64,000 bases of DNA from positions 620,001-684,000 of the forward strand of contig NZ_AUFX01000004.1 of assembly GCF_000426725.1 (NCBI RefSeq). The letters run 5' to 3'. Below, in pieces: positions 39,401 to 62,953 of the stretch; the stretch's first letter is position 1; each line of letters begins with the position of its first letter. The translations under genes were made by a program, and so were the position numbers. The DNA is from Sporocytophaga myxococcoides DSM 11118 (GTDB lineage Bacteria; Bacteroidota; Bacteroidia; Cytophagales; Cytophagaceae). The notes beneath the pieces are model-generated. The model saw only the letters and a list, made by a program, of their open reading frames with translations. It was not told the origin of the DNA and did not search any database.

Positions 39401-39420
39401 ATTTTTCAAACTGACTTATT

Positions 39421-39665
39421 AATCCCTTATTTTATTAATTAAATATTTAAATAATTATTATATATAATATATCCCTGTGAATAAGTTGAAAACTTTAATT
39501 ATTCACGTCTTGATTTTTTGTGAAGTTTATAATTCTTGATTTATATCTTTTTTATCCACAGGTTATATAACGATTTAATGATTGATTATTAGATATTTTT
39601 GGTTTTTATTAACGATTGAAAATTTTTTAATGTGTATTTATCCTTAAACAATGTGGATTGAGGAT
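39421..39665. other. Candidate replication origin: AT-rich stretch with DnaA boxes
   Basis: In the 450-bp non-coding gap between the TPR gene and the Ig-like lipoprotein gene there is one perfect DnaA box, TTATCCACA (39552-39560). A second match to TTATNCACA lies on the other strand (TGTGAATAA, 39476-39484), and a one-mismatch copy, TTATTCACG, is at 39499-39507. Looser matches are at 39631 and 39652. A nearly pure A/T tract of about 50 bp (39425-39472) precedes them, like an unwinding element. Four parS sites and mnmG lie 3-5 kb away. This is suggestive of oriC but not proof. Confidence 0.5.
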
Positions 39666-39854
39666 TGTTATAAATAATCCACCATTTTTGACCATGTTAT
39701 TTTTGCTGAATTTTGGTTCGTTGATAAAAGTTGCATCTCAGATTGTTTTCAGATTTTGAAAATAAATTTCTTAATGATTTAATCACATTGAATGTTGAAA
39801 ATGTTGATTTGTTAAGTCTTTAATATCAGTATTTTATATTTTTATTAATAAAAG

Positions 39855-42350: not shown

Positions 42351-44216
42351 TTATTTTCCTAGATAAATCATTAGGACAGAAATGTCAGATGGAGTTATTC
42401 CACTTATTCGTGATGCTTGTCCTAGTGTTTTTGGTTTAATTCTTTTTAACTTTTCCCTTGCTTCTGCAGATAGAGCAACCAAACTATCGTAATTCATGGA
42501 TTCATTTATTTGAAAGTTTTCCATGTTTGTCATTTTCTTAGCCAGTGCTTCTTCCTTCTGAATATAGCTTTCATATTTTACTTCTATAGAAGTTTGCTCA
42601 ACTATGTCATCGCTATATTTAGAGATTAGATTATTTGTATCTTCATTGATATTTGCCAAGTCTTTTATATCAAGATCTGGTCGTTTTATCAGGTTAAGAT
42701 ATGTTGCCTTTTCTCTTATTTGGGCACTTCCTAGTTCTTCTAATCTGGAGTTGATTTGTTCTGGCTGGAATTTAAATGCTTTTAATTGTTCGGTTAGATC
42801 TGAAACGCCTTTTTTCTTTTCCTTCATTTTTTCAAATCTTTCTCTGCTTGCAAGTCCTAATGCATATCCTTTTGCAGTTAATCTTAGATCTGCATTATCT
42901 TGACGAAGTAGTATTCTATATTCTGCTCTTGAAGTAAACATTCTATATGGTTCTTCTGTGCCTTTATTTACCAGATCGTCAATTAAGACTCCTATATATG
43001 CTTCTGATCTTCCAAGAATAAACTCTTCCTTTTCATGGACTTTATTATGAGCGTTTATTCCTGCAATTAAACCTTGGCATGCTGCTTCTTCATATCCTGT
43101 TGTTCCATTGATTTGCCCGGCAAAGTATAGGTTTTCCAGGATCTTTGTTTCAAGAGTTAGCTTTAATTGGGTAGGTGGGAAATAATCGTATTCTATTGCA
43201 TACCCAGGTCTGAACATTTTTACATTCTCAAATCCAGGGATTAGTTTTAAAGCGTTGTATTGTACATCTTCAGGTAATGAGGTAGAGAAACCATTGACAT
43301 ATATTTCTACAGTATTCCATCCTTCTGGTTCTACAAATATCTGGTGTCTCTCCTTATCCGCAAATCTGTTTATTTTATCCTCTACAGATGGACAATATCT
43401 AGGGCCTAATCCTTTTATCCTCCCAGTATACATTGGAGATTTATCAAATCCTGTCTTTAATACTTCATGTACATCTTTATTTGTATAGGTTATGTAGCAA
43501 CTTCTCTGTGCTTTTGGCGCTGATGTTTCTTCTGAATAGGAGAATTTACCAGGATTTTCATCACCTTTTTGTTCTTCCATTCTTTGATAGTTGAGAGATC
43601 TACCATCTATTCTTGGTGGAGTTCCTGTTTTCATTCTTCCTGCTTCAAATCCTAATTCAACAAGTTGTTCTGTTATTCCTGTTGCGGCCTTTTCTGCGGT
43701 TCTTCCTCCTCCAAACCTTTTTTCTCCAATATGTATTATACCATTTAAGAATGTACCATTAGTTAGAACTACTGATTTGGCTTTTATTTCAATACCCATT
43801 CCTGTCCTAACTCCTACTACCCTGCCATCCTTTACAAGAAGTCCGCTAATCATTTCTTGCCAGAAGTCTACATTAGGTGTTCTTTCCAGAGTCAATCTCC
43901 ATTCTTCAGCAAATTTCATTCTATCATTTTGACTTCTTGGGCTCCACATTGCAGGTCCTTTAGATCTATTTAGCATCCTGAATTGGATCATTGATTTATC
44001 GGATATAATACCCGACTGCCCACCTAAAGCATCTATTTCTCTTACAATTTGCCCTTTTGCCACTCCTCCCATTGCAGGATTACAAGACATTTGAGCTATT
44101 GTTTGCATGTTCATTGTTGCTAATAATACTGTTGATCCCATATTGGCAGCAGCAGCAGCAGCTTCACATCCGGCATGACCTGCACCTACAACAATTACAT
44201 CGTATTCTTTAAACAT
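42351..44216 (-). CDS. mnmG: tRNA uridine-5-carboxymethylaminomethyl modification enzyme MnmG (GidA)
   Basis: A 621-residue FAD protein that, with MnmE, modifies the wobble uridine of several tRNAs. The FAD motif '[21 protein letters not shown]' variant is at 8-28; '[23 protein letters not shown]' and '[19 protein letters not shown]' are family signatures; a GidA C-terminal domain follows. The length matches the family. In many bacteria this gene lies next to the chromosomal origin, which fits the parS sites upstream of its start. Confidence 0.97.
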
Positions 44217-44234: not shown

Positions 44235-44250
44235 TGTTCCACGTGGAACA
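44235..44250. other. parS site 1 (ParB-binding palindrome)
   Basis: TGTTCCACGTGGAACA is a perfect 16-bp palindrome equal to the Bacteroidota form of the parS consensus (TGTTYCACGTGRAACA). It lies 18 bp upstream of the mnmG start. Confidence 0.88.
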
Positions 44251-44325
44251 TAGTTTGATTATTTCGTTATTAACTCTATTAGCCAGAAATTAGTCCAAGT
44301 AGAGTTTTTAGTTTATTATATTTTA

Positions 44326-44341
44326 TGTTCCACGTGAAACA
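44326..44341. other. parS site 2 (ParB-binding palindrome)
   Basis: TGTTCCACGTGAAACA, one step from the perfect palindrome and still within the parS consensus. It lies 91 bp from site 1. Confidence 0.85.
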
Positions 44342-44380
44342 TCTGTTATCGAAATCTTTGTTAGATTTTATTGGTAGAGA

Positions 44381-44396
44381 TGTTCCACGTGGAACT
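44381..44396. other. parS site 3 (ParB-binding palindrome)
   Basis: TGTTCCACGTGGAACT matches parS except at the last base. It lies 55 bp from site 2 and 13 bp before the end of ybeY. Confidence 0.82.
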
Positions 44397-44409
44397 TTAA
44401 TTAGTTTTG

Positions 44410-44868
44410 TTATTTTGTTCCACGTGGAACATTGTATTTTGTGTTTAGGAGGGTGACGTATTTGTTTTCTTTTTCCCTCATTAGATTTTTCTCTTCTTCC
44501 TTTTTGTCTTTGTATCCGCAGAGATGTAATACGCCGTGAATTAAAACTCTGTAAAGCTCCAATTGGAACGTTGTTTCGAATCTTGTTGCATTATCTCTTA
44601 TTCTTTCAATACTAATGAATATATCCGATTCGATTAAAGTTCCATCAGAATTATCAAAAGTGATAATATCTGTTAGAGTTTTATGGTTAAGGTAATCCTT
44701 GTTGAGTTCTAAAAGATAATTATCAGAACAGAAAATATAGTTGATATATCCAATGGATTTCTTCTCCTTTTTTGCCACCTCTTTTATCCATTGGATAATT
44801 TGTTCTTTGTGTAAAAAGCGAAAGGATATATCTTCTTTATGGAAAAAAATTTCAGATGTATTTGACAT
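44410..44868 (-). CDS. ybeY: Endoribonuclease YbeY
   Basis: A 152-residue rRNA-maturation and quality-control metalloprotein. The metal-binding motif is 'YRVLIHGVLHLCGYKDKKEEE' variant at about 110-130, in which two His are kept and the third is replaced as in other Bacteroidota. 'DYLNHKTLTDIITFDN' is the preceding family motif. Its last codons (N-V-P-R-G-T-K-stop) are formed by the fourth parS site, so the DNA signal is part of the protein code. It overlaps the ATPase gene by 1 bp. Confidence 0.93.
   Translation of the reverse strand: MSNTSEIFFHKEDISFRFLHKEQIIQWIKEVAKKEKKSIGYINYIFCSDNYLLELNKDYLNHKTLTDIITFDNSDGTLIESDIFISIERIRDNATRFETTFQLELYRVLIHGVLHLCGYKDKKEEEKNLMREKENKYVTLLNTKYNVPRGTK
44416..44431. 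other. parS site 4, inside the 3' end of ybeY
   Basis: TGTTCCACGTGGAACA, a perfect palindrome 35 bp from site 3. It is read in frame as Asn-Val-Pro-Arg-Gly-Thr-Lys at the YbeY C-terminus. Confidence 0.88.
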
Positions 44869-45272
44869 TAATTAAAGTAAAATGAAAGTTCTACAGTTCT
44901 TCCTTCATTTTTGAATTCGACCTGGTCAGATAAATGCTTCATAAGGAATATTCCTCTCCCTCCTATTTTATCCAGATTTTCTGGTGCTGTTGGATCAGGT
45001 AATGAATCATAGTTAAAGCCTGGACCTTCGTCTTCAATAATAAATTTCAAGTGGTTATCCTGGCATTCTGCAGCTAGGACAACATTCTTTGTTCTGTCTC
45101 CTTTGTTTCCGTGTACAATAGCATTGTTTACTGACTCTGTAACAGCAACCATGATGTTTCCATAGATGTCATCATCAATCTGAAACTTGTCTTTTACATT
45201 GTCGATAAAGCTCTCAACAATTCTAATGTTTTCCGGTAAGGAAGGGATCTGTATCCTAAGCGAATTCATCAT
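44868..45272 (-). CDS. RsbW-like ATP-binding protein (anti-sigma factor / serine kinase type)
   Basis: A 134-residue GHKL ATPase domain. 'VTESVNNAIVHGNKGDRTKNV' is the N-box and 'FIIEDEGPGFNYDSLPDPTAPENLDKIGGRGIFLMKHL' contains the G1 and G2 boxes. RsbW-type proteins bind and block a sigma factor or phosphorylate an anti-anti-sigma partner; no such partner is in this window. It lies between ybeY and the DUF4175 gene in a minus-strand run. Confidence 0.88.
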   Translation of the reverse strand: MMNSLRIQIPSLPENIRIVESFIDNVKDKFQIDDDIYGNIMVAVTESVNNAIVHGNKGDRTKNVVLAAECQDNHLKFIIEDEGPGFNYDSLPDPTAPENLDKIGGRGIFLMKHLSDQVEFKNEGRTVELSFYFN

Positions 45273-45299
45273 TCTTTAACTTTATAATACGGTTTTATC

Positions 45300-48200
45300 T
45301 TAATTGTCTATTTTCTGAAAATATTCATTTACCTCTTGCTTATAGTAAGGGGTTAAAGCAGGAGAAATGGATTTTAAAAGGTCTATTTGTCTTTCTTTTG
45401 CTTTTAGATATTTCTCAAAAGAAGGCGGTATATCTTGTTTTGGTTCTTTAGCAGATTCAGCTTCTCTTTTCTCATCGAGATCTCTTTCCCTAACTGCCTT
45501 TTCTGCTTCCAGTAATCTGGTTAATATCTCCTGTTGTCTCATGATCATTTCCTGAGTCAATTTTTTATTTACCAGATCATTTTCTGTTTCCTCCATTTTT
45601 TGAGAAAGTTGATTCAAATTATTTCCTGGAGCTTGACCTCCATTTTTATTCATCATTTTCTCCAACTCCTTCATTGCATTTCTGATTGTTTCTTGTTCAG
45701 CAGCAAGTTTTGCGAGTTCTTCAGAAAGCTCCTTTCCGGTTTTTCCCCCTTGCTTTAATTGCTGAATTTTCTGATTGAGCTGTTTCTGTAGTTCTCCTAG
45801 GCCTGGTTTAGGGTTTTTTCCAGGTTTCTTGCACATTGAAGAACCGCTTTTCATCGACTGTGCCATTTGCTCCTGCATCTGCTTCAAAACATCATTAAGC
45901 ATTAAGGCAAGATTGTTTATGGATGTCATCGCAAATTGTTGTTTACCCGCTGCTATATCAGGTCTTCTTTCTTTAATTGCTTTAGCACTTTCATCCATAA
46001 AATCTTTCATTTGGCCAACTTCGCGAGTAACAAAAGATTCTATTTGGTAGACCCTTTTTGCTAAAGCTAAAAGACTATCTTCAATGATCTTACTGTCATC
46101 CTTTAGTTTTAACTGTTTTTGTGATAATGCAATGAATCTTGGATCTGTTTGATTTACTTTTTTGAATTCCTTCATTACATCTTCCTGATCAAAAGAGAGT
46201 CTTACAAGGTTTTCTAATATCATTCTAAGGTCTTCCATATTTTCTTCAGCTTGCTCCTGTTCATTGGATTTCTGCATAGAAGACAATTTATCAGCCATCT
46301 CTTTCATTTTTTCGGCTGCATTTTTCTGGGAATTACCTGCTTTTTTGTTTTGATTGTTCTTTAGTTGTTCAGAACTGTTTTGTTGCTCATTAGAAATTTC
46401 ATTCTCCTTTGAATCTGTATTTTCAAGGTCATTTTTGTTTTCCAATGACTCGTTAATCTTCTCAAGGTCATTTAATTTCTCTTGTATATTTTTAAAGTCT
46501 TCATTTAGCTTTTCTTGTTGTTGCTGAAGAGATTTCTGATCCTCCTGTTTTTGATTTGTTTTTTCAGCAAGCTCTTCCTGCTCTTTTGCAGTTTCTTTAA
46601 GGTCATTAATGATTTCTTCTGACTTTTGGTCAAATTTAAGCTGCTTAAACATCTCTAAGGCTCTCTCTAGCTCCTTATCCATGTTGTTTTCCTTCTTCTG
46701 AATGGCATCCAATACTTTTTGAAGATCCTGCTTAGGGGCGTTTTTTTCCATGAGTTTTTGAAGCTCATCATAAAGTTTCTTGGTCTCTTCATCCAGTAAT
46801 TCATTCATGAGCTTTTGTAATTGCTCCATTTTTTTCGCCATTTCTTCACTGGAAGGACTGAGTTTGTCCTGTTGCTGATTAAGCTTCTCATTTGCTTTTT
46901 TCAGCTCCTCTATTTCTTTACGAAGTTCTTCATGCTTATCAAGAAGTTCTTCTATGCTCTTTTTATCCTGCCAATTCAGATTATTCTTCCCTTTTAGCTT
47001 TTCTTCAATTTTATTCAGGTCTTTTTGGATCTGCTGAGATTTGCTCAAAGCTTTTTCCATCTTGTTTTCGGTCTGACTCGAATTTTTAGAAATAGCCTTC
47101 GATGCTTCTTCTTTTGAAGGAAGTTTTATTCCATATGTTTTGGATTTAGAGCTTTTTCTTCCATTTACACCATCATTGTCCCAAACCTGGAGATAGTAGT
47201 CAAGGCTTTCTCCTGGTTTTAAGTTAAGAGAATCAATATTCCAATTGAATATGAAATTCTGTGACAGGAATTTTTGATCTATTGGTACATTAATGGATTT
47301 GAATGGTGATTCCTTCTCTTTATTATCATCTAATGACCTTTTATAAAATAGTCTTAAGCCAGTTAATCCGTAATCATCATTGATGCTTCCTCCTAGGCTT
47401 ATAAAATTAAATAGAGTTGAATCATGATATTCTTCACTAGAAATTTGAGGAAATTGATCCGGAATTACATTAATAGTATAACTAATCTTCTCTTTACTTT
47501 TTACCTGCTTGTTCTGCAGTTCAAGATCGTAGCTTTCTGTCTTGTTAAATGTTTTAGACAGCTTGTAAGCATCGTCTTCTATATTTTCGGTTATCTGTTT
47601 CCCTGTAGAAAACAAAATCTTAATTTGATCAGCTGATTTTGTATTGAACTCCCAGGTAACAGAAGTTCCTTCAGGAATGCTTAAATTCCCTATGTTTTTA
47701 ACCTTTTCAGACTGTTTTTTTAGATAGGATGGGTAGTTTAAATATACATCAAATGATGTAAGCTCGGGTCTATTGATTAGATCAATGGAATATCCGTCGG
47801 AGATAAAACCTGCAGCTTCAAAATTGAAGTCTTCTTTTCTTTGTATATTTTTAAAGAGATATGAGAATTTTCCTCCTCCAAGGTTTTTCAGTTTAGACCT
47901 TTTATTGGCGGAAATAAGGTAAACAGATTCAGGAATAGAATTGCCTTTTATAGACAAATTGATCTCAAAATCCTCGTTTTTAAAGGCTTTTAATGATTTA
48001 TTTTCAAGCATAAAGGCGAATGGTGCTTTATCTTTGAAATCTATATTATAGTTAATTATACGTGCAGTGCTTTCTACAAAAATGTGCGGAAGAAAGAATA
48101 CTATTAAAGCAATTATTACTATTGGTCCGACCAGATAGCGCAAATATCTTTTGTTTTCCTTTATGTTAATAGCGTTGGAAAAAGGGACTATTGATAATGA

Positions 48201-48611
48201 ATTTGTCTTTTGTTCTATACTTGCCCTTATGAGCTCGCTTTCCTTTTCACTCATTTTTTTGAGTTGAAGGGTATTCAAGAGTTTGTCCTTAATTTCTGGA
48301 AAATATAGACCTATCTGTCGTGAAGCTTCTTCATCTGACAGCTGTTTATTGATTGCAAAGTATTTTAAAAGAGGATCTAATATCCAGGTAAAAAATGCCA
48401 GCGATCCGGAAATTAAATATGTAAAGAAAAATATAACCCTAACTATCTGGCTAAATTTTCCATAGTATTCAAGTATTGAGAAAAATAGATAAGTTGAAGA
48501 TAGAAGTGTTAAAAATAAAATTCCACCCTTAAGCATTTGGTTAAGGTAGTACTTTCTTTTGTAGGCCTTAAGGTTTACTAAGAGTTTATCGAAGTTTTCT
48601 GCTGGTTTCAT
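45300..48611 (-). CDS. DUF4175 family membrane protein
   Basis: A 1103-residue protein from the ATG at 48611. It has two hydrophobic helices near residues 30 and 60, a third near 165, a periplasmic beta-rich middle to about residue 500, then a very long coiled-coil and Gln/Lys/Glu-rich tail containing methionine- and glutamine-rich heptads. This matches the large DUF4175 proteins of Bacteroidota. The function is unknown; the shape suggests an envelope scaffold or a regulatory partner. It lies 27 bp upstream of the RsbW-like gene, so co-expression is likely. Confidence 0.85.
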   Translation of the reverse strand: MKPAENFDKLLVNLKAYKRKYYLNQMLKGGILFLTLLSSTYLFFSILEYYGKFSQIVRVIFFFTYLISGSLAFFTWILDPLLKYFAINKQLSDEEASRQIGLYFPEIKDKLLNTLQLKKMSEKESELIRASIEQKTNSLSIVPFSNAINIKENKRYLRYLVGPIVIIALIVFFLPHIFVESTARIINYNIDFKDKAPFAFMLENKSLKAFKNEDFEINLSIKGNSIPESVYLISANKRSKLKNLGGGKFSYLFKNIQRKEDFNFEAAGFISDGYSIDLINRPELTSFDVYLNYPSYLKKQSEKVKNIGNLSIPEGTSVTWEFNTKSADQIKILFSTGKQITENIEDDAYKLSKTFNKTESYDLELQNKQVKSKEKISYTINVIPDQFPQISSEEYHDSTLFNFISLGGSINDDYGLTGLRLFYKRSLDDNKEKESPFKSINVPIDQKFLSQNFIFNWNIDSLNLKPGESLDYYLQVWDNDGVNGRKSSKSKTYGIKLPSKEEASKAISKNSSQTENKMEKALSKSQQIQKDLNKIEEKLKGKNNLNWQDKKSIEELLDKHEELRKEIEELKKANEKLNQQQDKLSPSSEEMAKKMEQLQKLMNELLDEETKKLYDELQKLMEKNAPKQDLQKVLDAIQKKENNMDKELERALEMFKQLKFDQKSEEIINDLKETAKEQEELAEKTNQKQEDQKSLQQQQEKLNEDFKNIQEKLNDLEKINESLENKNDLENTDSKENEISNEQQNSSEQLKNNQNKKAGNSQKNAAEKMKEMADKLSSMQKSNEQEQAEENMEDLRMILENLVRLSFDQEDVMKEFKKVNQTDPRFIALSQKQLKLKDDSKIIEDSLLALAKRVYQIESFVTREVGQMKDFMDESAKAIKERRPDIAAGKQQFAMTSINNLALMLNDVLKQMQEQMAQSMKSGSSMCKKPGKNPKPGLGELQKQLNQKIQQLKQGGKTGKELSEELAKLAAEQETIRNAMKELEKMMNKNGGQAPGNNLNQLSQKMEETENDLVNKKLTQEMIMRQQEILTRLLEAEKAVRERDLDEKREAESAKEPKQDIPPSFEKYLKAKERQIDLLKSISPALTPYYKQEVNEYFQKIDN

Positions 48612-48727
48612 CACTTCTTAACGAGGTCGTCCAGTTGATTATTTTTGTAGGCCTTTTAAATTAAGATGAGCAGGACCGAACTTCGATCCTGCTCAAAATG
48701 GTTATTAATAAGTTTTAATTCAACCAA

Positions 48728-50491
48728 TTACATGTCCGCTTTCTTCGGATACTCAAAGTAGACGTTTGTGAAGTCCCTGTATTGCATTGCATTGTTCGGG
48801 AAGTTCTTAACAAAAGCCTGCATTAATCTGTATCCTTCATCGTACCATAATACCATGATTGGAGCATCCTGCATTACTATGTTTTCTGCTTCAAGGAAGT
48901 GTTTGAACGCTTCTTCCTGAGTTGTGGCTTTTAGGCCTGCCTCATAAAGTTTGTCAAACTTATCGCTCTTGTATCTCATCATATTTGGATATGGTGGTTT
49001 TTCTAGGCTCGCAGGAACAGTTTTTCCATAGAAGAACCACAGGAAGTTTTCAGGGTTTGGATAATCTGCAATCCAACCTCCTCTGAAAAAGTCACTCTTT
49101 CCATTGATCATGTTTTCAACTAACTGAGCGAATGGTACAATGTTCAATTCGATAGAAATGTTTAAGTGCTCTTTAAGCTGTTTCTGAATTTCTTCAGCTA
49201 CTGCAGCATTTCTTTCTCCATCAGAGTTAAGCTCCAGGGTAATTTTAGGGAATCCTTTTCCATCCGGATATCCTGCTTTCTTCAGATAGTATTTTGCAGA
49301 ATCAAGGTTAAGGTCATATCCATTGATTTTGCTAACGTCATAAACCGGATTCTTAAAGATATCTATAGGTGTAATTCCGTGCGTTGCAGGAGCATAACCT
49401 TCTCCGTTAAGCACGAATTCAAGTATTTTCTTTCTGTCTATGGCAAAAGAGAATGCCTTTCTTAAATCTTTATTATTAAAGATTTTACCTTGATTTAGGA
49501 ATGAAAGGAAGTGAGTTGCCATTTCTGGAGTTCTTTGAAGGTCATATTGTCCGAATTGGCCTTTATTTCCTTTTACCTCTTCAAGGATTTCTATGATATG
49601 GTCAGTTGGAAGTCTGTACATCATATCAAGATTTCCTTTTTTGAATTCTAAAAGCTCAGTTTTCTTATCTTTTATAAACTTGATTTTTATAGCATCCAAG
49701 AATGGTAACTTGTTTCCGTGCTCATCAGAACCCCAGTAATTTTCATTTTTCTTAAGGATGATTGAGATATCATCTTCAATGCTGAAAATTTTAAACGGTC
49801 CTGTTCCTACTGCTTTAGTTCTCATTTCAAGACCATATTTCTCCAAAGCTTCTTTAGGGAAGATGTAAGTGAACGGTCTTGCAAGATTATAAAGGAAGAT
49901 TGAATTTGGAGCAGTAAGGGTAAATTGAATGGTATTAGGATCGATTACTTTAATACCGTCCACTTCAAATGATGGTTTTTTTCCTCCCTCTGATGCTTTA
50001 TAGTATTCGTCAGCGCCTTTCAAAATTCCCTGAAATACGCTAAATCCTTGATTGTTAATATTTTGAGTGCAAAGTTGGGTAAAACAGAATTTAACATCCT
50101 CTGCTGTTAACTCTCTGCCTTTTCCACCTGGAAAACATTCATTATCGTGAAAGAGTACTCCTTTTCTGATTTTAAATGTGTAAACAGTTTTACTTGGGTC
50201 TACGGAATAATCTTCAGCTATCCCTTTTATAAGGCTTAGATCCGCTTGATTAAATTTCATCAAACCTTCGTAAACCTGATTTGCAACGCGATAAGATATT
50301 GCGTCGGTTATATTATGAGGGAATAGGTTCTTAATGTAGTCGGACTCATTAACTTTAAACACTCCGCCATAATACCTTCCTCCCTTCGCAGCAGTTAGGC
50401 TGGAAGATTCTCCGCTGCCAGTTTCTTTTGTTGTATCACATGATGATAACAGCACCCCGGCGCACGCTAAGGTTAATAACAATTTCTTCAT
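48728..50491 (-). CDS. ABC transporter substrate-binding lipoprotein (SBP family 5, oligopeptide type)
   Basis: A 587-residue lipoprotein (lipobox 'GVLLSSCDT', Cys at about 19). It shows the family 5 layout: 'YYGGVFKVNESDYIKNLFPHN', 'AISYRVANQVYEGLMKFN', 'DPSKTVYTFKIRKGVLFHDN', and further on 'LRKAFSFAIDRKKILEFVLNGEGYAPA'. Such proteins bind peptides or nickel for a membrane permease. No permease or ATPase gene is nearby. Confidence 0.92.
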   Translation of the reverse strand: MKKLLLTLACAGVLLSSCDTTKETGSGESSSLTAAKGGRYYGGVFKVNESDYIKNLFPHNITDAISYRVANQVYEGLMKFNQADLSLIKGIAEDYSVDPSKTVYTFKIRKGVLFHDNECFPGGKGRELTAEDVKFCFTQLCTQNINNQGFSVFQGILKGADEYYKASEGGKKPSFEVDGIKVIDPNTIQFTLTAPNSIFLYNLARPFTYIFPKEALEKYGLEMRTKAVGTGPFKIFSIEDDISIILKKNENYWGSDEHGNKLPFLDAIKIKFIKDKKTELLEFKKGNLDMMYRLPTDHIIEILEEVKGNKGQFGQYDLQRTPEMATHFLSFLNQGKIFNNKDLRKAFSFAIDRKKILEFVLNGEGYAPATHGITPIDIFKNPVYDVSKINGYDLNLDSAKYYLKKAGYPDGKGFPKITLELNSDGERNAAVAEEIQKQLKEHLNISIELNIVPFAQLVENMINGKSDFFRGGWIADYPNPENFLWFFYGKTVPASLEKPPYPNMMRYKSDKFDKLYEAGLKATTQEEAFKHFLEAENIVMQDAPIMVLWYDEGYRLMQAFVKNFPNNAMQYRDFTNVYFEYPKKADM

Positions 50492-50585
50492 TTATTTTTT
50501 AAAAAATTGGTTGAACATTCAAAACCCAATTAAATTTTTAAAGAGGCCAATTTAATAACAAAATGTATTAAACGAAAATATTGAT

Positions 50586-51350
50586 CTAAACAATTTCAAT
50601 TAGTACCGGGCAATGGTCTGAATGTTTAGCTTCGTTTAATATAATTGCCCTTTTAAGGCGCTCCTTTAAATTTTCTGTTACGGCATGATAATCTATGCGC
50701 CAGCCAAGATTTTTACTTCTTGCATTCATTCTGTATGTCCACCATGTGTAATGATGAGGTTCAGAATTAAAGTGCCGGAATGCATCTACAAAACCGCTTC
50801 CAAAGAATTTAGACATCCATGCCCTTTCTTCTGGCAAAAATCCCGAAGAATTAGCGTTGGATTTTGGGTTGTGTATATCTATTGTTTGATGGCAAATATT
50901 ATAATCGCCACAAACAATTAAACGGGGGAAATCTGTCCTAAGTGTGGAAACATAATTATAAAAATCATCTAACCAGCACATTTTAAAGGCTTGTCTCTCT
51001 TCACCGCTAGATCCTGAAGGCATATATACGTTGAGAATGGAAAAAGTTTCAAAATCTATTCTTAAAACTCTTCCCTCATAATCGTATTTTTCCATACCAC
51101 AACCTACACAAACATTTACAGGTTTAATTTTTGAAAAAATCGCAACTCCACTATATCCTTTTTTAACTGCAGGATGCCAACTCAAATATTTAAATCCTAA
51201 TTCTTCAATTTCTGTAGTATCAACTTGTTCTGGAGTTGATTTTATTTCCTGAAGGCAAATCACATCTGCCCCTGTTGCATCAAGCCACTTTACAAACCCT
51301 TTACTAATAGCTGATCTTAAGCCGTTTACGTTATATGTTAATATCTTCAA
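50586..51350 (-). CDS. xth: Exodeoxyribonuclease III
   Basis: A 254-residue AP endonuclease/3'-5' exonuclease of the ExoIII family. N-terminal 'MKILTYNVNGLRSAISKGF' (Asn ligand), 'VICLQEIKS' (Glu ligand), 'LIVCGDYNICHQTIDIHNPK' (Asp-x-Asn), 'WRIDYHAVT' (Asp) and terminal 'KHSDHCPVLIEI' (Asp-His). All catalytic positions are present. It repairs abasic sites. A small unknown gene precedes it by 11 bp. Confidence 0.95.
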   Translation of the reverse strand: MKILTYNVNGLRSAISKGFVKWLDATGADVICLQEIKSTPEQVDTTEIEELGFKYLSWHPAVKKGYSGVAIFSKIKPVNVCVGCGMEKYDYEGRVLRIDFETFSILNVYMPSGSSGEERQAFKMCWLDDFYNYVSTLRTDFPRLIVCGDYNICHQTIDIHNPKSNANSSGFLPEERAWMSKFFGSGFVDAFRHFNSEPHHYTWWTYRMNARSKNLGWRIDYHAVTENLKERLKRAIILNEAKHSDHCPVLIEIV

Positions 51351-51361
51351 TCAAAAAGGTA

Positions 51362-51700
51362 TTATAGTGTTTTGAAATACTCCTTTATGTGCATTTTGAG
51401 CAGCTTTTCCTGTTCTCTAAGGTCAAATTGGGGCAAATTTTTAACTAACTTCCAATGCGGCCATCCATCCTGATCCTGTCCTTCTAGTTCATAATAACCT
51501 GATAAACTTAAAAGTTTGCATATTCCAATATGCATAAGATCCTGTTTTTCTTCTTTGGAATAGTTTCTTTTTCCTTGCCCAAGCTCTTGCACTCCTATTA
51601 GAAATAGAATAGCATCCATATTTGGCCTTTTGCCAATTACTGCTTTCAAACTATCAAGCAGTGCTATCCATTCCGGGTCAAAATCTTTATCGGCTGACAT
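51362..51700 (-). CDS. Small conserved protein, unknown function
   Basis: A 112-residue soluble protein with 'NMDAILFLIGVQELGQGKRNYSKEEKQDLMHIGICKLLSLSGYY' and a C-terminal 'WKLVKNLPQFDLREQEKLLKMHIKEYF'. I believe similar proteins are widespread next to housekeeping genes in Cytophagales, but I know no function. It is probably co-transcribed with the exonuclease III gene (11-bp gap). Confidence 0.7.
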   Translation of the reverse strand: MSADKDFDPEWIALLDSLKAVIGKRPNMDAILFLIGVQELGQGKRNYSKEEKQDLMHIGICKLLSLSGYYELEGQDQDGWPHWKLVKNLPQFDLREQEKLLKMHIKEYFKTL

Positions 51701-51779
51701 CTTTATTTAATTATAATATTGGTTCAAGTTATGAAATGATAATTAGTTTTACTTTATTTTGATTCACTTTTAACCAGCT

Positions 51780-52466
51780 ATGAAGAACTTATTTTATTCA
51801 TTTTTTGAATTAATATACCCACAATTGTGTGCAGGGTGTAATGATGGTTTGTTAGTCAACGAAGAAATTCTTTGTACTTCCTGCCTTGTAAACTTGCCCA
51901 AAGCCGAGATAGGTCTTTTGTCAAACAACGAATTGGAGAAGCGATTTTATGGTAAAGTGATGATTGACCAGGCTTTTGTTTACCTCAAATTCCAAAAAAA
52001 GAGCATTGTACAGAATATTTTATTTGATATAAAGTATGGAGGAAATAAAGCTGCTGGAAGGTATTTGGGAAAAAAATTTGGTTTGGAAATTCTTAAAAAG
52101 TCTCCTGATTTTATGCCAGACTTGATAGCTCCTGTGCCTTTACATTCGAAAAGATTTAGATCCAGAGGATATAATCAAAGTTTTGTAATTGGGGAAGGAC
52201 TTGGGGAGAGCCTAGGTGTTTGCTGTAAAGAGATTGTAGGCAGGGTTGTTTCAACTTCTACTCAGACAAAAATTAACAGGATTTTGAGATGGAAAAATGT
52301 TGATGGAATTTTTAAAGTCAAAGACGTTTCTGAGATTTCAGGTAAACATATCCTGTTGATTGATGATGTCGTTACAACTGGCTCAACCATGGAAGCCTGC
52401 CTGCTTGCTTTACTTGATGCCGGTGCCTCAAAGGTCAGTATTGCATCAGTGGCTATTGCTACATAA
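51780..52466 (+). CDS. ComF family phosphoribosyltransferase-like protein
   Basis: A 228-residue protein. The N-terminus has a partial zinc-binding Cys cluster ('YPQLCAGCNDGLLVNEEILCTSCLVNLP'). The C-terminal phosphoribosyltransferase fold carries 'PDLIAPVPLHSKRFRSRGYNQSFVIG' and the PRPP loop 'GKHILLIDDVVTTGSTMEACLLAL' (about 188-211). ComF proteins are linked to DNA uptake in competent bacteria and to replication repair in others. It is monocistronic, ending on a bidirectional terminator. Confidence 0.92.
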   Translation: MKNLFYSFFELIYPQLCAGCNDGLLVNEEILCTSCLVNLPKAEIGLLSNNELEKRFYGKVMIDQAFVYLKFQKKSIVQNILFDIKYGGNKAAGRYLGKKFGLEILKKSPDFMPDLIAPVPLHSKRFRSRGYNQSFVIGEGLGESLGVCCKEIVGRVVSTSTQTKINRILRWKNVDGIFKVKDVSEISGKHILLIDDVVTTGSTMEACLLALLDAGASKVSIASVAIAT

Positions 52467-52498
52467 AAAAGCCTTTGGGTATTACCCAAAGGCTTTTT
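52466..52498. terminator. Bidirectional terminator
   Basis: A perfect 15-bp stem (left arm AAAAAGCCTTTGGGT) with a 3-nt loop, between the converging comF-type gene and gldJ. A- and T-tracts flank it on both sides. Confidence 0.92.
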
Positions 52499-52515
52499 AG
52501 ATTTAATTATATCTA

Positions 52516-53706
52516 TTAATAGTTTGTTCCAGCTTGGATCATCGCACAACGGAATCCGATAGTTGCAGTACAAGAATCTTCTGCAAGGTATCTTCTTGTT
52601 CCAGGAGACATCCAGTAAGCAACGTCTTTCCAGCTTCCACCTTTGTAAACTCTTACGTGGTCATCGATAAGAGACTGGAATCCAGCTTTATCGTATCCTT
52701 TTTCTTCGTCAAGGAAGCCGTTTCTTCTAAGTGGGTTCAGGTCATCAAAATCTTGGAAAGAAAGAGGACGGTAAACATCATATACCCACTCGTTTACGTT
52801 ACCAGCCATGTTGTAAAGACCGAAGTCATTTGGAGGATATTCGTAGATGTAAGTAGTGATCATTGCACCATCATTCAATTTACCAGCTATACCGGCATAG
52901 TCACCTCTACCTCTTTTAAAGTTGGCAAGGAACATACCCATTTGTTTTCCATATGGATTTCTAAGAGCGTGACCATCCCAAGGATAAAGTCTTTTGTGTG
53001 TTTGGTTTTCATCCAACCACTGGTTTCCAATAAGTGCCTGAGCAGCATATTCCCACTCAGCCTCAGATGGAAGTCTGTAGTTCGGAAGAACCACACCAGA
53101 CTCAAGAGGAATTCTTCCTCCGCCTTCAGGTACTTCAACACCTGCATCTTTAGCTAGCTCGTTGTTTACAACTCTTGTTCTCCAAGTACAGTAATCAACT
53201 GCCTGAATCCAGTTAACTCCTACTAATGGGAAATAACGGAAACCAGGATATCTTAAGTAGTGCTCAACATAAGGGTCATTGTAAGCAAGCTCACTTGCCC
53301 AAACGTTTGTATCAGGAAGAGCAGATTCATAGAATTCCTGAGAAGAGTCTCTCTGGATATAAAATAAATACTCTAACCAGTGAATGTTTGCAATTTCAGT
53401 TTCATCCATGTAAAAAGACGCTACCGTAACAGTTCTTTCTACGTTGTCTCCCGATTTAAGAATATCTTCCTCGAAAGAACCTAAAACAGTTCTACCGCCT
53501 TCGATGTACACAAGGTTTGGCCCTTCAGGCTGACCTTGGAAATCTTTAACTTCAAAACCGTTTTCTTCATTGTAAGCCAGACCGGTAACCGTGCTTTCTT
53601 TGCCCGGGTTGGTGCTGGTAGGATTTCCCTTTGAACAGGCAGAGATGATTACTGCTCCTGCTGCTATGAGGGATAGCCCTTTTAAAGTGGTGAAAATTTT
53701 ATTCAT
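52516..53706 (-). CDS. gldJ: Gliding motility / T9SS lipoprotein, GldJ-like
   Basis: A 396-residue lipoprotein (Cys24 in 'IISACSKG') with an SUMF1/formylglycine-generating-enzyme-type domain. The start of the domain 'NLVYIEGGRTVLGSFEED' and 'SFYMDETEIANIHWLEYLFYI' match GldJ, as do 'ALPDTNVWASELAYNDPYVEHYLRYPGF' and 'VGVNWIQAVDYCTWRT'. The SUMF1 catalytic Cys pair is not evident, as expected for a structural member. GldJ is needed for gliding and for stability of the GldK ring of the T9SS. GldK could be mistaken for it, but 'ALPDT.VW....Y' favours GldJ. Confidence 0.78.
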   Translation of the reverse strand: MNKIFTTLKGLSLIAAGAVIISACSKGNPTSTNPGKESTVTGLAYNEENGFEVKDFQGQPEGPNLVYIEGGRTVLGSFEEDILKSGDNVERTVTVASFYMDETEIANIHWLEYLFYIQRDSSQEFYESALPDTNVWASELAYNDPYVEHYLRYPGFRYFPLVGVNWIQAVDYCTWRTRVVNNELAKDAGVEVPEGGGRIPLESGVVLPNYRLPSEAEWEYAAQALIGNQWLDENQTHKRLYPWDGHALRNPYGKQMGMFLANFKRGRGDYAGIAGKLNDGAMITTYIYEYPPNDFGLYNMAGNVNEWVYDVYRPLSFQDFDDLNPLRRNGFLDEEKGYDKAGFQSLIDDHVRVYKGGSWKDVAYWMSPGTRRYLAEDSCTATIGFRCAMIQAGTNY

Positions 53707-53981
53707 AACCTGTTTCTTAAATTGTATACACTTCCAGAATAATTTGCTAATTTATGTACTTCCAATATAAAATACAATTAATTAGTTGAATTATATAATA
53801 AATTTTTTTGTTGAGGGAATTTCTCCTCAAACGAACTTTTTCCAAACTATATTACTAAATTATAATTTTATAGACAAATAATTAAATTTTTTGGAAATTT
53901 ATTCAAGGCTAAGTATATACTTGCCAGGTATCCATAAGGTTTAGGTTTTAAAAAATTTTTCTTAAAAGTTTATTTAATTGA

Positions 53982-54710
53982 TTAAAAGGCAAGTATTATA
54001 CCTCCATTTACTCCAATAGAATATAGTCTTTCTTTTTCTGGCACATCTTTGCGTAATGGAGTGAAAAAGTAAGTAAACTGTGGCATAAGCATAAAGCCAA
54101 TATTTTCAGATATAAATGCTTGCACTCCTGTACCTATATTTCCCCCCATTAAAAAATTATTCAAATTTGCATCATCTCGCGTTAATTCCGATGTTTCAGT
54201 TAAAGTGCCTGATGTGTAATAATCAGTTTTTTCCTTTGCTTTTATCAAATAATTGAAAGAAGGGCCAACTCTCACAAATAGAGAGATTTTCTCTTTTTTG
54301 ATATAGCTGTAATTCACGAAAACCGGAAATTCAAATAGCTCCGCTTTAAAAGAACCTTTGGCCTGATCATTTCCATTTACAGGAGTGCTTAATGTTGTTA
54401 AGGGCGTTTTAAAACCTTTTCTGCTGTATCTGCCTCCAAGACCAAAAGCAAATCTATCATTAAGGTGTTTTTCAAAATTTAATCCGAGAGAATAACCATA
54501 AGTCCCCGTTTCTTTTTTGCGCGTCTCTTTAATGTTTGGTTGATCACTTGTAACACTTAAGATTCTGGAGGTATATTCTGGAGAATAATATATAGTTATT
54601 TTCCAGGGATCATGTATATCCTGTGCTATTGCTATGGTATTTCTAAAAGTTAATAAGCAAACTGCAAAGAGAAATATACCAGTAAATCTGTTTTTAAGAA
54701 GTGCTTTCAT
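53982..54710 (-). CDS. Outer-membrane beta-barrel protein
   Basis: A 242-residue protein with a signal peptide ending 'AIAIAQ'. The mature part has repeated amphipathic strands ('GYSLGLNFEKHLNDRFAFGLGGRYS', 'ELFEFPVFVNYSYIKKEKISLFVRVGPSFNYLI', 'GTGVQAFISENIGFMLMPQFTYFF') and a C-terminal 'YSIGVNGGIILAF' ending in Phe, as required for barrel assembly. It lies between GldJ and the divergent GldN-like gene, so a link to the T9SS is plausible, but it is not a recognised Por/Spr component. Confidence 0.78.
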   Translation of the reverse strand: MKALLKNRFTGIFLFAVCLLTFRNTIAIAQDIHDPWKITIYYSPEYTSRILSVTSDQPNIKETRKKETGTYGYSLGLNFEKHLNDRFAFGLGGRYSRKGFKTPLTTLSTPVNGNDQAKGSFKAELFEFPVFVNYSYIKKEKISLFVRVGPSFNYLIKAKEKTDYYTSGTLTETSELTRDDANLNNFLMGGNIGTGVQAFISENIGFMLMPQFTYFFTPLRKDVPEKERLYSIGVNGGIILAF

Positions 54711-54852
54711 TAAGACTGGGATTATAAAAATTTAACCGTGCAGTAGTTATTTTGTTTTTGCCCAATTATCGTCTTTTTGATATGCAATCTGCATTTGACA
54801 GATGAATTAAATAATTTCCGTTTCAAGTTCGTTCTTTCATAAATTATCCGTT

Positions 54853-55548
54853 ATGAAAGGCATCACTTTAATTTTATTTTTCCTCGGAGTTTCAAATTTA
54901 GCCTTAGGGCAAAATCTAAATGTCAGAGAACAAGATGTTCTTTTCAGAAAGCATCTTGTGAGAGCATTTACTTTACAAGATCCAAAGAATGTTGAATTGT
55001 TTGGGGAAAATGCAGTTATGTCAGAAATTTTGCTAAACGCTGTTGAAAAAGGCAATCTTTTAGCTTACAAAGACAGAATGTGTAAGGAGGAACTATCAAG
55101 AGAAGAAATATTATCTAAAGTCATACTATCTGATGAAGACACCATTGGTTTTATTTTTCCGCATTCATTAAAAGAAATAGAATTAGGCGAAGATATTATC
55201 TTTGATAAGCACAGGTCTGAGTTTGTTTTTGATCAAAAATATATTGCTTTGATAATTCCTCAATCAGAAAATTACAGGGGTATTACTGAACCACTTGCCT
55301 ATTTTAGATATTTGGATTGCATTAAAGTCTTTAATCAGGATGAAAGGGCATTTAGCCTCAATTTTTCAGGAGTTAAAATTCCCTTTAATGATTTGTTTCT
55401 GACCCATTCTTACAAATCTTACATAGTAAAAATAGGGAATGGCAATTATTTTGACCAGGTCTATCCGGATCCTCTAAAAGCCTTCATTGCAGCAAGACAC
55501 CAGGAAAACTTGCTTAATGATTACCTCTATAAATTTTTCAATCCATGA
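54853..55548 (+). CDS. Short GldN-like T9SS-associated protein
   Basis: A 231-residue periplasmic protein (signal peptide to 'NLALGQ'). It follows the GldN pattern: 'NVREQDVLFRKHLVRAFTLQDPKN', 'LLNAVEKGNLLAYKD', 'FDKHRSEFVFDQKYIALIIP', 'YFRYLDCIKVFN' and 'FNDLFLTHSYKSYIVKIGN'. GldN works with GldK, GldL and GldM in the T9SS motor ring. This copy is 60-80 residues shorter than typical GldN and is not next to gldKLM here, so it is likely a paralogue. It is divergent from the barrel gene and upstream of an ECF sigma factor. Confidence 0.72.
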   Translation: MKGITLILFFLGVSNLALGQNLNVREQDVLFRKHLVRAFTLQDPKNVELFGENAVMSEILLNAVEKGNLLAYKDRMCKEELSREEILSKVILSDEDTIGFIFPHSLKEIELGEDIIFDKHRSEFVFDQKYIALIIPQSENYRGITEPLAYFRYLDCIKVFNQDERAFSLNFSGVKIPFNDLFLTHSYKSYIVKIGNGNYFDQVYPDPLKAFIAARHQENLLNDYLYKFFNP

Positions 55549-55667
55549 TTAAATATTGAGATAATTAGTAATAACAGAATAAATAGGTACAGGCAATAAA
55601 TGTGTGATCACAAATATTTTTCGGAAAAAAGCCATCGAACGATGAAAAGGTTTCGTAATTTTAGAGC

Positions 55668-56219
55668 ATGGCAAATACTGCTAAAGAAAAAATTCAACAA
55701 GATCACATCCCCGAAGAAGCTCTTGTTGGCCTGTTGAAAGGCAAAGACCAGAATGCATTGGAATACCTTTATGACCATTACTCTCCTGCCGTATTTGGAA
55801 TTGTGTTACGTATAGCAAATTCCGAAAAAGCTGCCGAAAAGATATTTAAAGAAGTATTTTGTGAAATATTAAAAAGGATATCAGAATTCAATCATAAAAC
55901 AGAGAAGTTTTTTGATTGGCTTTTGAGAATTGCAAGAAGTACAGCTTTAGAATTGGTTAGCAAAAGAGGGTTTAAGCAAAATAATTTATCAGATATAGTG
56001 CAGATGAAGACACAAGAGGGAATTCTTGGAAATACGGAACCTGCAGTATCAAGGGATTTTCTCAACAATCTTAATCCTGAACAAAAGCATTATCTGGACT
56101 TGATTTATTTCCAGGGTTTGACTATTAATCAGATTGCTGAAAAGTTTAATCAACCGGCAAATGCAGTAAGAAATAAAGCTAAGGCGGCTTTGCACATGTT
56201 AAAAGCATTACACTCCTGA
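55668..56219 (+). CDS. ECF-type RNA polymerase sigma factor
   Basis: A 183-residue sigma-70 family protein. Region 2 is 'NALEYLYDHYSPAVFGIVLRIANSEKAAEKIFKEVF ... FFDWLLRIARSTALE' and region 4 is 'LNPEQKHYLDLIYFQGLTINQIAEKFNQPANAVRNKAKAAL' (about 127-170). The next gene, 1 bp on, encodes a membrane protein of the anti-sigma K type, its expected partner. Release of the sigma on an envelope signal is the likely regulation (inference from the pair). Confidence 0.9.
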   Translation: MANTAKEKIQQDHIPEEALVGLLKGKDQNALEYLYDHYSPAVFGIVLRIANSEKAAEKIFKEVFCEILKRISEFNHKTEKFFDWLLRIARSTALELVSKRGFKQNNLSDIVQMKTQEGILGNTEPAVSRDFLNNLNPEQKHYLDLIYFQGLTINQIAEKFNQPANAVRNKAKAALHMLKALHS

Positions 56220-56220
56220 T

Positions 56221-57081
56221 ATGACTTCACAAGAATTAATTAATTCCGGAAAACTGGAGCTTTATGTTCTGGGAGAGTTATCAGAATCTGAGTCTCACGA
56301 AATTGAAATAGCGAGCGCAGGAAATCCGGATGTAAATGAGGAAATAAGAACACTTCAAAATGCATTAAGGAAATATGTAATGTGTTTTGAAAAGACTCCA
56401 CCTTTGGGTTACAAGAGACAGGTGCTTGAGGATCTGGCAAAGCAGAATGAATTGCGTGAGTCTGATGAAACCTCAAAAAAAACAATCAATGAAAAGGTAG
56501 AGAAGTTTGAAATGTCAGAGGAGAAAAGCAAAGCTTCCAATATTTTACTTCCGATATTTATTGTTACGTCCGTCATTTCACTTGTAGCCGCTGCATTTTT
56601 TGCTTATCATATGAAAAATGCAAATATTGACCTGGTGAATTTGAATTCCGATAATTCTCTGGTTAAAGAGTCCTCATTAAAAGAGAAAGAAAATCTTTTG
56701 AATGAGATGGTAATAGTTAAAAGTGAATTACAATCTGCACTTTTAAGTGTTGAGGTTCTCAAAGATTCTAATTTTACGAAAATTGAAATGTCTAGTCCGG
56801 ATGGTGCCGTTAAAGTCCCTTTATATTGGAACAAACTAAATGGAGAGCTTTTTGTGGACGGGGCAAATATACCAGTATTGTCTGAAGATAAAACCTATCA
56901 ACTTTGGGCAATATATGAAGGTGTTCCTGGGAATTCAGGATTTGTAGTTGGTCAGGTAAAATCCTTACAGAAAATGACAGGCGTATCTAAAGCAGAGGCA
57001 TTTTCTTTGACTGTCGAATCGAAGGGAAACAACACAGATCCTTCGTTTGAAAATATTTATGCTACGATTACTTTGGAATAA
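56221..57081 (+). CDS. Anti-sigma factor with RskA-type periplasmic domain
   Basis: A 286-residue protein. An N-terminal zinc-finger-like anti-sigma region opens 'SGKLELYVLGELSESESHEIEIAS' (cytoplasmic). One membrane helix lies at about 100-125 ('ILLPIFIVTSVISLVAAAFF'), followed by a coiled coil. The C-terminal RskA domain is 'VPLYWNKLNGELFVDGANIPVLSEDKTYQLWAIYEG'. It follows its sigma gene by 1 bp. Such pairs link surface conditions to gene expression. Confidence 0.88.
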   Translation: MTSQELINSGKLELYVLGELSESESHEIEIASAGNPDVNEEIRTLQNALRKYVMCFEKTPPLGYKRQVLEDLAKQNELRESDETSKKTINEKVEKFEMSEEKSKASNILLPIFIVTSVISLVAAAFFAYHMKNANIDLVNLNSDNSLVKESSLKEKENLLNEMVIVKSELQSALLSVEVLKDSNFTKIEMSSPDGAVKVPLYWNKLNGELFVDGANIPVLSEDKTYQLWAIYEGVPGNSGFVVGQVKSLQKMTGVSKAEAFSLTVESKGNNTDPSFENIYATITLE

Positions 57082-57103
57082 AACAGTGAAGTATGTCTTT
57101 ATT

Positions 57104-57140
57104 AAAGCCGGACAATGAACTCATTGTCCGGCTTTATTTT
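57104..57140 (+). terminator. Rho-independent terminator
   Basis: AAAGCCGGACAATG / CATTGTCCGGCTTT forms a perfect 14-bp stem with a 4-nt loop and a T-run. It lies between the anti-sigma gene and the converging GNAT-like gene. Confidence 0.92.
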
Positions 57141-57153
57141 TTACTAAAAGTTA

Positions 57154-57456
57154 TTAATATGGATAGTAAATTAAATTCCTGTACTCTGGGTGTTCTACAA
57201 GAAAATCCTGGACACAAGAGCAGGAGGCCTTGATCCGTGCATTTTTCATTTTAGCAAAATTGAGTGCATATTCAACAATAGTTGACCGTAGCTCTTTTGC
57301 CTGTTTCAAGGTCTGAGGAATAAAAGCACTAATAAAATCCCAGACAAGATCATTCCATTTTATGTATTTCAAAGTACATTCAACCCCTTCAATTGTAGTG
57401 AAGAATTTTCTTTCTTCTTCGTTATGTCTGATCATTACTTTTGTCGTTCTCTCCAT
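57154..57456 (-). CDS. Small GNAT-like N-acetyltransferase (YjdJ type)
   Basis: A 100-residue protein of the short GNAT group. 'FTTIEGVECTLKYIKWND' forms the first strands; 'FIPQTLKQAKELRSTIVEYALNFAKMKNARIKASCSCVQDFLVEHPEYRNLIY' contains the helix before CoA and the family ending C-x-x-V-x-x-F-x-x-x-H-P-E-Y. The usual CoA-binding loop is altered (no clear RGxGxG), so activity is uncertain. It lies alone between the anti-sigma and DUF434 genes. Confidence 0.75.
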   Translation of the reverse strand: MERTTKVMIRHNEEERKFFTTIEGVECTLKYIKWNDLVWDFISAFIPQTLKQAKELRSTIVEYALNFAKMKNARIKASCSCVQDFLVEHPEYRNLIYYPY

Positions 57457-57509
57457 TGCTTTTTACTCTCCACTAAATCAACCCGGAAAGTTAAAGGATT
57501 GTTAAGAAG

Positions 57510-58232
57510 CTATATTTCAGAAGTTTTTAAATTTAAAAGTTTTAGGTCAAATGCATTTGATAATGAGTAGATAAGGTCGGAGTTTAGGTTATACCAGGCT
57601 GTCATTTTATCAAGCAATGGGCCATCGGTCGTTACAATAATCCCCTTCGAAAGAATTAGCTGTTTGTCTGCGTCGGGAACTAGTTCCACAGTTGTATCAG
57701 GGGAAATTTCTTTGAGAAGGGTTTTAACCCTCCCGCTGTTGGAAACCGGAGCATCAAAATACCAAGTCACCGATCTGGGTTTCAAGGCCCATAAGAAAGA
57801 ACAAATCTGAGACAATGCCTCGGGCGTTTCCATAACTTTTTTATAAGAACCATGAATAGATGCCAGATCTCTTATACATCCGTCCATCCCTAAGAATAGG
57901 CAGGCTCCGGAATAAAATGACTCAATGGTTATTAAAGTATTAAACCCGTCAACAAATACATCTGAGTTTTCGAGTAATGCTGCATCTTTTTGAATGGACA
58001 ACCTATGTTTCAGAGATTCATGTGTACAGCAGCTTCGCCGAATTGCCATTTGCTGACGGAGATTAAGACGATACCTGTCTCCGACTAGTTTAAGTGAAGA
58101 GGCTTCATTATAATTTTTTGAAAGCAACCACGAAAGATCTCTCACTGCTTTCCTTAAATCGGGCAATTTTGTTTCGTTAAAATTGCTTTCATCATCGGGA
58201 TGAGCTCCTCTATGCTTTCTTTTGTCTGGCAT
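57510..58232 (-). CDS. DUF434 domain protein
   Basis: A 240-residue protein. 'PDKRKHRGAHPDDESNF' opens it, 'LVGDRYRLNLRQQMAIRRSCC' is the DUF434 signature at about 48-70, and 'VFVDGFNTLITIESFYSGACLFLGMDGCIRDLASIHGSYKKV' with 'WYFDAPVSNSGRVKTLL' forms the second, probably nucleotide-binding, domain. Its start overlaps the uvrA stop by one base, so the two are co-transcribed. The biochemical role is unknown. Confidence 0.85.
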   Translation of the reverse strand: MPDKRKHRGAHPDDESNFNETKLPDLRKAVRDLSWLLSKNYNEASSLKLVGDRYRLNLRQQMAIRRSCCTHESLKHRLSIQKDAALLENSDVFVDGFNTLITIESFYSGACLFLGMDGCIRDLASIHGSYKKVMETPEALSQICSFLWALKPRSVTWYFDAPVSNSGRVKTLLKEISPDTTVELVPDADKQLILSKGIIVTTDGPLLDKMTAWYNLNSDLIYSLSNAFDLKLLNLKTSEI

Positions 58233-61054: not shown

Positions 61055-61120
61055 AAATTATATTGACAACTGTTTATTTCGTAACAATTTTTCTTAAAAT
61101 AAGTATATATTTCCGTTGTG

Positions 61121-61139
61121 TTTTTGGAATATCCAAAAA
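61121..61139. promoter_or_regulatory. Short perfect-arm inverted repeat between uvrA and an ECF sigma gene
   Basis: TTTTTGGA and TCCAAAAA are separated by 3 bp, about 67 bp from the uvrA start and 120 bp before the sigma start. It could bind a regulator of either gene. It is not a recognised LexA box. Confidence 0.3.
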
Positions 61140-61257
61140 TAATAATTAACTTTAAAATACATTAGTTCAATTATTTTATTCAGTTGAACAATTGTTTCAC
61201 CCTAAACCCCTACAATATCGAGATAGACTACTACGTTAACTAAACGTGGAATTGAAA

Positions 61258-62062: not shown

Positions 62063-62067
62063 AAACT

Positions 62068-62097
62068 AAAAAGGGTCTTGGTTTAGGACCCTTTTTT
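62068..62097 (+). terminator. Rho-independent terminator
   Basis: AAAAAGGGTC / GACCCTTTTT forms a 10-bp stem with a 9-nt loop and a T-rich tail. It closes the sigma-small-protein unit. Confidence 0.9.
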
Positions 62098-62950: not shown

Positions 62951-62953
62951 CCT

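Follow-up and report, generated by a model that had tools for sequence, protein, structure and literature searches.

A parS cluster upstream of mnmG as the probable chromosomal centromere of a Cytophagales-like bacterium, and the parS–mnmG pair across the Bacteroidota

Four parS sites upstream of mnmG and the cognate ParB

The window analysed here is a stretch of 64,000 nucleotides, positions 620001–684000 of contig C2, in a genome of 6,341,527 bases and 21 contigs. On its minus strand lie mnmG (gidA; 42351..44216), which encodes a tRNA modification enzyme, and the upstream neighbour ybeY (44410..44868), named from sequence and position, whose end overlaps parS. The parS site nearest to mnmG, the perfect palindrome TGTTCCACGTGGAACA at 44235..44250 (0 mismatches), ends 18 bases short of the mnmG start codon. 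It is followed by TGTTCCACGTGAAACA at 44326..44341, with one mismatch to TGTTCCACGTGGAACA, and by TGTTCCACGTGGAACT at 44381..44396, where the single changed base stands at the end. The fourth site, at 44416..44431, is again a perfect palindrome (0 mismatches); it lies inside the 3′ end of ybeY, where it encodes NVPRGT of the C-terminal tail, and is therefore not strictly intergenic. An earlier note on this DNA had placed four sites at 44235, 44326, 44381 and 44416, upstream of mnmG, with uneven spacings of 91, 55 and 35 bp. The sites, two perfect and two with one change, and the spacings are as it claimed, and "upstream" is right, mnmG being read from the minus strand.

A chance origin of the sites was dismissed on shuffles of the window and a genome-wide count. 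Allowing up to 3 mismatches to TGTTCCACGTGGAACA, the window holds 5 matches, against a mean of 0.17 and a maximum of 2 in 100 shuffles. The same search of the genome finds 26 places, made up of the four window sites at 0 or 1 mismatch, one place at 2 and 21 at 3, while the reversed control pattern finds 14. All four genome sites with at most one mismatch fall within 197 bp of the 6.34 Mb searched, and they are the sole good set because no other place in the genome reaches that threshold. The genome-wide count of the motif that had been proposed earlier thus puts every such site in the window cluster. Both the 16 bp palindrome TGTTNCACGTGNAACA or a near variant of it and the concentration at one chromosomal place, as found here, are marks of a chromosomal parS centromere.

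Overlap with the end of ybeY is not confined to this genome. A parS-like site overlaps it in 30 of the 93 loci with a ybeY match, 7 of the 30 touching the stop region only. The overlaps use all three reading frames (13, 13 and 4 cases) and give tails such as VPRGT, MFHVEQ/LFHVEH and CSTWN. Judged from their sequences, such tails look like centromere footprints more than conserved protein.

The genome has one ParB-family match over the cut-off, on contig C3. Directly upstream of parB and in the same orientation lies ParA, recognised by eye from its Walker motif. The solved structures closest to this ParB are ParB, Noc and Spo0J chains. Its residues were numbered by counting from the GK motif (motif spacing), following the Caulobacter numbering in the part of PMC7383237 consulted, and read Q162, G170, K171, N172, R173, N178, Y179, K184, G201 and R204. 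In that part of the same paper, residues 173 and 201 form the switch between parS-type and Noc specificity; K at 184 is usual in Noc, and this position is also variable among ParB proteins. By the motif-spacing count, the genome's ParB is of parS type at both switching positions (R173 and G201). It also carries the GERR motif and keeps five of the six contact residues common to ParB and Noc, the exception being position 172, with N for S. A cognate ParB with parS-type specificity residues (S172 replaced by N; K at 184) and a ParA (assigned by eye) are therefore both present, as in a centromere system. The possibility that the palindromes are Noc-binding sites (NBS) was rejected, since the Noc type needs Q173 and R201 and since the sites themselves fit parS.

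By homology with studied ParABS systems, the single ParB would load on the four palindromes and close as a CTP clamp, which would slide into mnmG, ybeY and their neighbours. ParA would then move the origin-proximal complex apart after replication. The products of dnaA and parAB would act from elsewhere on the chromosome.

Skew turnover, candidate oriC and the position of dnaA

To the left of the sites, raw GC skew is negative in 20 of 20 examined stretches of C2 (−0.036 to −0.133; 18 samples and two window pieces); at third positions, two of these stretches show a slightly positive skew. The stretch just to the right, C2 664331–684000 (44331..64000 of the window), has a raw skew of −0.026 and a third-position skew of +0.076, and two 20 kb stretches beyond the right edge of the window have raw skews of +0.086 and +0.155. 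Over C2 600001–724000, the cumulative raw skew reaches its minimum at 61000–63000 of the window, on a shallow floor 17–19 kb from the cluster. The skew thus turns over, from negative on the left to positive beyond, within roughly 20 kb of parS, as the earlier note had suggested checking. As only about 62 kb of contig lies right of the cluster in this 21-contig assembly, the turnover rests on two full stretches on that side.

A candidate oriC lies about 5 kb from the cluster, at 39410..39854, between a TPR-like and an Ig-like gene. It is a 445 bp intergenic segment of 79% A+T with two exact DnaA boxes, TTATTCACA at 39476..39484 on the minus strand and TTATCCACA at 39552..39560 on the plus strand. 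A third exact box occurs at 38955, inside the gene adjoining the segment. Counterparts were found in G048, G075 and G110, all of one other family of the order. There the 449–450 bp after the Ig-like match hold 3, 3 and 5 TTWTNCACA boxes, against shuffle means near 0.1, and each has an AT-rich run, seen by eye, after a DnaA box. In all four genomes tested, the box counts of the candidate oriC exceed those of dinucleotide shuffles (P below 0.0005 to 0.035, by genome and box definition). No exact DnaA box occurs in the 1.28 kb after the Ig-like gene in G002, G079 and G098, of another family of the class. Over all 117 mnmG regions of the phylum set described below, there are 39 exact boxes (reversed control, 24), and at least two within 500 bp are seen in G000 and G048 only. 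The segment 39410–39854 is, on its sequence, a fair candidate for the working oriC of the chromosome. The closeness of the cluster to oriC is likewise read from sequence, namely from the skew turnover and the candidate 5 kb off, on a contig that extends only 62 kb to one side. In G120 (C2:511373-512988), of the same genus, the match to the Ig-like gene is broken into pieces, the middle one containing stops, which may reflect a pseudogene or an assembly error.

Alternatively, the sites could be true parS while the origin lies at dnaA, so that the centromere would be far from the origin. Here dnaA is on contig C4, apart from the parS contig C2, and the assembly alone therefore gives no distance. 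Distances were taken from 20 genomes, of which 19 are single-contig and were treated as circular, and one (G008) is in two contigs. The two genes lie within 2.1% of the chromosome of each other in 9 of the 20, at 5.3–10.6% in 3 and at 21.6–38.6% in 8. The separation expected under this alternative is common in the own class, where mnmG and dnaA are 21.6–38.6% apart in 6 of the 7 single-contig genomes, the exception being G002; outside the class, 2 of 13 exceed 20%. The distance from parB to mnmG is 7.7–47.2% of the chromosome in all 20. Within the own order, 10 genomes were searched for dnaA. The parS–dnaA distance is 14–31% of the chromosome (rounded lengths) in four of them, a figure that leaves out G162 and G165 (three contigs). 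G168 has only 1-mismatch sites, 124 kb apart, one of them near the Ig-like gene and about half a chromosome from dnaA, and sites with at most one mismatch are absent from G161, G167 and G153.

Skew was sampled at 20 places in each of three single-contig relatives (G117, G094 and G032). The third-position contrast of G117 is greatest in the bin holding mnmG, a value reached by 0 of 2000 permutations, and that of G094 at 2.52–2.74 Mb, with mnmG at 2.76 Mb (p 0.009). Third-position skew places the origin of these two genomes at or next to mnmG, not at dnaA. Their raw skew peaks 0.25–0.45 Mb from mnmG. When the terminus is left free, raw skew fits an origin for G117 at 1.84 Mb, some 0.47 Mb away from mnmG; for G094, two positions, 1.97 and 2.85 Mb, score almost equally well. 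In G117, gene orientation carries no signal. For G032, the raw skew contrast is greatest at 3.45–3.68 Mb, with mnmG at 3.70 Mb (p 0.05), and the gene-orientation contrast at 3.20–3.43 Mb (p 0.001); its third-position skew is opposite in direction, at 0.66–0.89 Mb (p 0.03). Anchored at dnaA, the raw-skew contrasts of G117, G094 and G032 are −0.054, −0.069 and −0.004, and anchored at mnmG they are +0.054, +0.060 and +0.013. The dnaA-anchored contrasts are negative in all three by gene orientation as well.

An origin at dnaA is improbable on this evidence. The own skew turns over near parS, the raw-skew contrasts of the three relatives are negative at dnaA and positive at mnmG (third positions of G032 being opposite), and the 4,380 bp around dnaA yielded no DnaA box. 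In the part of PMC10197239 consulted, ori was placed by parS clusters together with skew in 12 gut species, and dnaA is not systematically there.

The four sites are very probably the chromosomal centromere, a parS cluster, of a Cytophagales-like bacterium, placed at the skew turnover and about 5 kb from the candidate oriC, and not near dnaA or parAB. The earlier note had taken the cluster for the likely centromere and the window for a place near the likely origin; both are supported, because all sites with at most one mismatch are here and the skew turns over nearby.

The parS–mnmG pair in relatives and across the phylum

The other three genomes searched in the genus have 4, 4 and 3 sites at the same place, 2.8–3.0 kb from the Ig-like gene, and one of them (G119) has one extra 1-mismatch site elsewhere. 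Among the own genome and others of its genus, family and order, 44 of 59 have a site with at most one mismatch (114 sites in total; the control gave 12 matches in 10 genomes), and 15 of the 59 searched have none. A site lies within 6 kb of the Ig-like gene in 22 of 24 genomes among the matches listed; in the other two, sites and gene are on separate contigs. Some relatives (L026, L029 and G134:C24:35213-36322) carry 6 to 7 parS-like sites in one cluster.

The spacing of the sites had been tentatively ascribed earlier to clamp loading rather than helical phasing, and this is unsupported. Gaps within the genus differ by a few bases, from 91/55/35 here to 92/57/36 in G119, 88/53/37 in G118 and 89/90 in G120, which has one site fewer. 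The test for helical phase was post hoc, with three periods and three sets chosen after the data had been seen, and an ordinary Rayleigh test was set aside, since the same gap recurs in related genomes. For distinct gaps per family of the phylum set, R is 0.38 at 10.5 bp (reached in 0 of 2000 jitters), with p 0.18 at 10.0 and 0.009 at 11.0; short gaps of this set give p 0.002–0.008, and distinct gaps of the named set described below give p 0.17–0.38. A preferred helical phase is thus hinted at by the phylum set, and the named set gives no such hint. With drifting gaps and a phase hint that depends on the set, the spacing therefore shows neither clamp loading nor phasing. In the named loci L217–L296, neighbouring gaps pile up at 36–39 bp (16) and 43–48 bp (28), with few at 40–42 bp (3), a possible spacing preference that is again post hoc.

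For the phylum, an even sample of 118 genomes, each at least 95% complete, was taken. An mnmG over the family cut-off was found in 117; G115, with a weak partial match, was left out. The mnmG regions (n = 117) comprise 3 kb on each side, five being cut by contig ends. Exact TGTTNCACGTGNAACA is present in 87 of the 118 genomes, the reversed control pattern in 1, and 136 of the 156 exact sites lie within 3 kb of mnmG. Sites with at most two mismatches occur within 100 bp of mnmG in 105 of 117 genomes, within 500 bp in 108 and within 3 kb in 111; with at most one mismatch, 101 of 117 have a site within 500 bp. No reversed control site occurs in the 117 regions. By family, 27 of 31 have a site within 500 bp of mnmG. 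Six of the 117 (G036, G063, G090, G013, G033 and G108) have none within 3 kb; G090 has no site with at most one mismatch anywhere, and the other five carry such sites elsewhere. In G071 the only site beside mnmG has 2 mismatches, and an exact site lies about 26 kb away on the same contig. A single parS-like site of 248, in G016 (L018 2038), falls inside the mnmG coding sequence. A further set of 80 named loci was the best 80 of 584 matches and therefore consists of close kin, their titles naming mostly Cytophagales genera or groups. Within 500 bp upstream of mnmG, 75 of the 80 have a site with at most two mismatches and 70 a site with at most one; the control has 0.

In the own class, 27 of 30 genomes have an upstream site, and 14 of these 27 also have one downstream. 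In the other classes (n = 87), sites are upstream (within 500 bp) in 50, downstream (within 600 bp) in 67 and both in 33. That the mnmG link stems from a shared upstream neighbour was considered and rejected. A ybeY match lies near mnmG in 22 of the 117 regions, in the own class only (a divergent ybeY could escape the query), and the sites persist elsewhere; over the 117 regions the upstream neighbours of mnmG differ between classes while the attachment of parS to mnmG stays tight.

These positions bear on whether the palindromes instead serve an unrelated CACGTG-binding regulator as operators in the control of mnmG or ybeY, and are not a centromere. The sites do lie in the mnmG promoter region, and in other classes they hug the start or the end of mnmG. 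Nevertheless, the match to parS extends over the full 16 bases, beyond the 6-base core, a parS-type ParB is present, and there is no other genome site with at most one mismatch. Moreover, 34 of the 87 genomes outside the own class have sites downstream only, which a promoter operator would therefore not explain. We regard such a regulator as very unlikely. That the cluster is a remnant of an integrated plasmid or mobile element is less likely still and can practically be dismissed, as no support for it was found, the surroundings are core genes (ybeY, mnmG and a methyltransferase), and in the three other genomes searched in the genus the distance between the sites and this Ig-like gene is unchanged.

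With the sites taken as parS, the simplest account of their position beside mnmG is inheritance within the phylum, by descent from an ancestral gidA–parS–oriC region. It is conceivable, though we consider it unlikely, that parS is held at mnmG throughout the Bacteroidota by function and not merely by descent, with ParB clamps loaded at the flanks of mnmG coupling origin segregation to mnmG expression, or the reverse. Such a coupling, if true, would account for a pair that remains tens to a few hundred bases apart while dnaA, parAB and other neighbours change place. What stands out in the result is the mnmG link; the sites themselves are of an ordinary kind. A parS site beside mnmG offers a simple handle for the centromere and likely origin in Bacteroidota, where dnaA is often distant and can mislead. 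With centromere, initiator gene and partition genes separated and one gene–site pair kept, the link also provides a case for testing the reasons of parS position.

Comparison with known systems

In textbook chromosomal ParABS systems, parAB lies near oriC. The present system resembles those of Bacillus subtilis Spo0J and Caulobacter ParB in having an identical 16 bp palindrome, in a cluster close to the likely origin, and in a single ParB with parS-type residues and an adjoining ParA. It differs from them in that parAB and parS are on separate contigs here, and in the distance noted above between parB and mnmG in the 20 relatives.

The passages of PMC10197239 consulted place ori by parS clusters and GC skew in the 12 gut species, of which two are Bacteroidetes; read coverage supports the placement, and ori was chosen as the skew shift nearer parS. 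The window is like these bacteria, which include Bacteroides caecimuris and Muribaculum intestinale, in that a parS cluster and GC skew together mark ori. That ori need not lie at dnaA is already in print. Those passages make no mention of mnmG, the closeness of which was measured here over 117 genomes, and do not name the species in which dnaA is away from ori.

A literature search of limited extent gave no report of a phylum-wide tight parS–mnmG link among the matches listed; absence from print is not claimed. As an origin gene, gidA is long known. PMC2099444, in the part consulted and citing Ogasawara and Yoshikawa 1992, lists gidA, gidB, parA, parB, dnaA and others as often close to origins. 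The present locus agrees with this gene set in one listed member, gidA being mnmG. Unlike in that set, dnaA and parAB in the own class mostly lie a long way from mnmG, whereas parS has remained with it.
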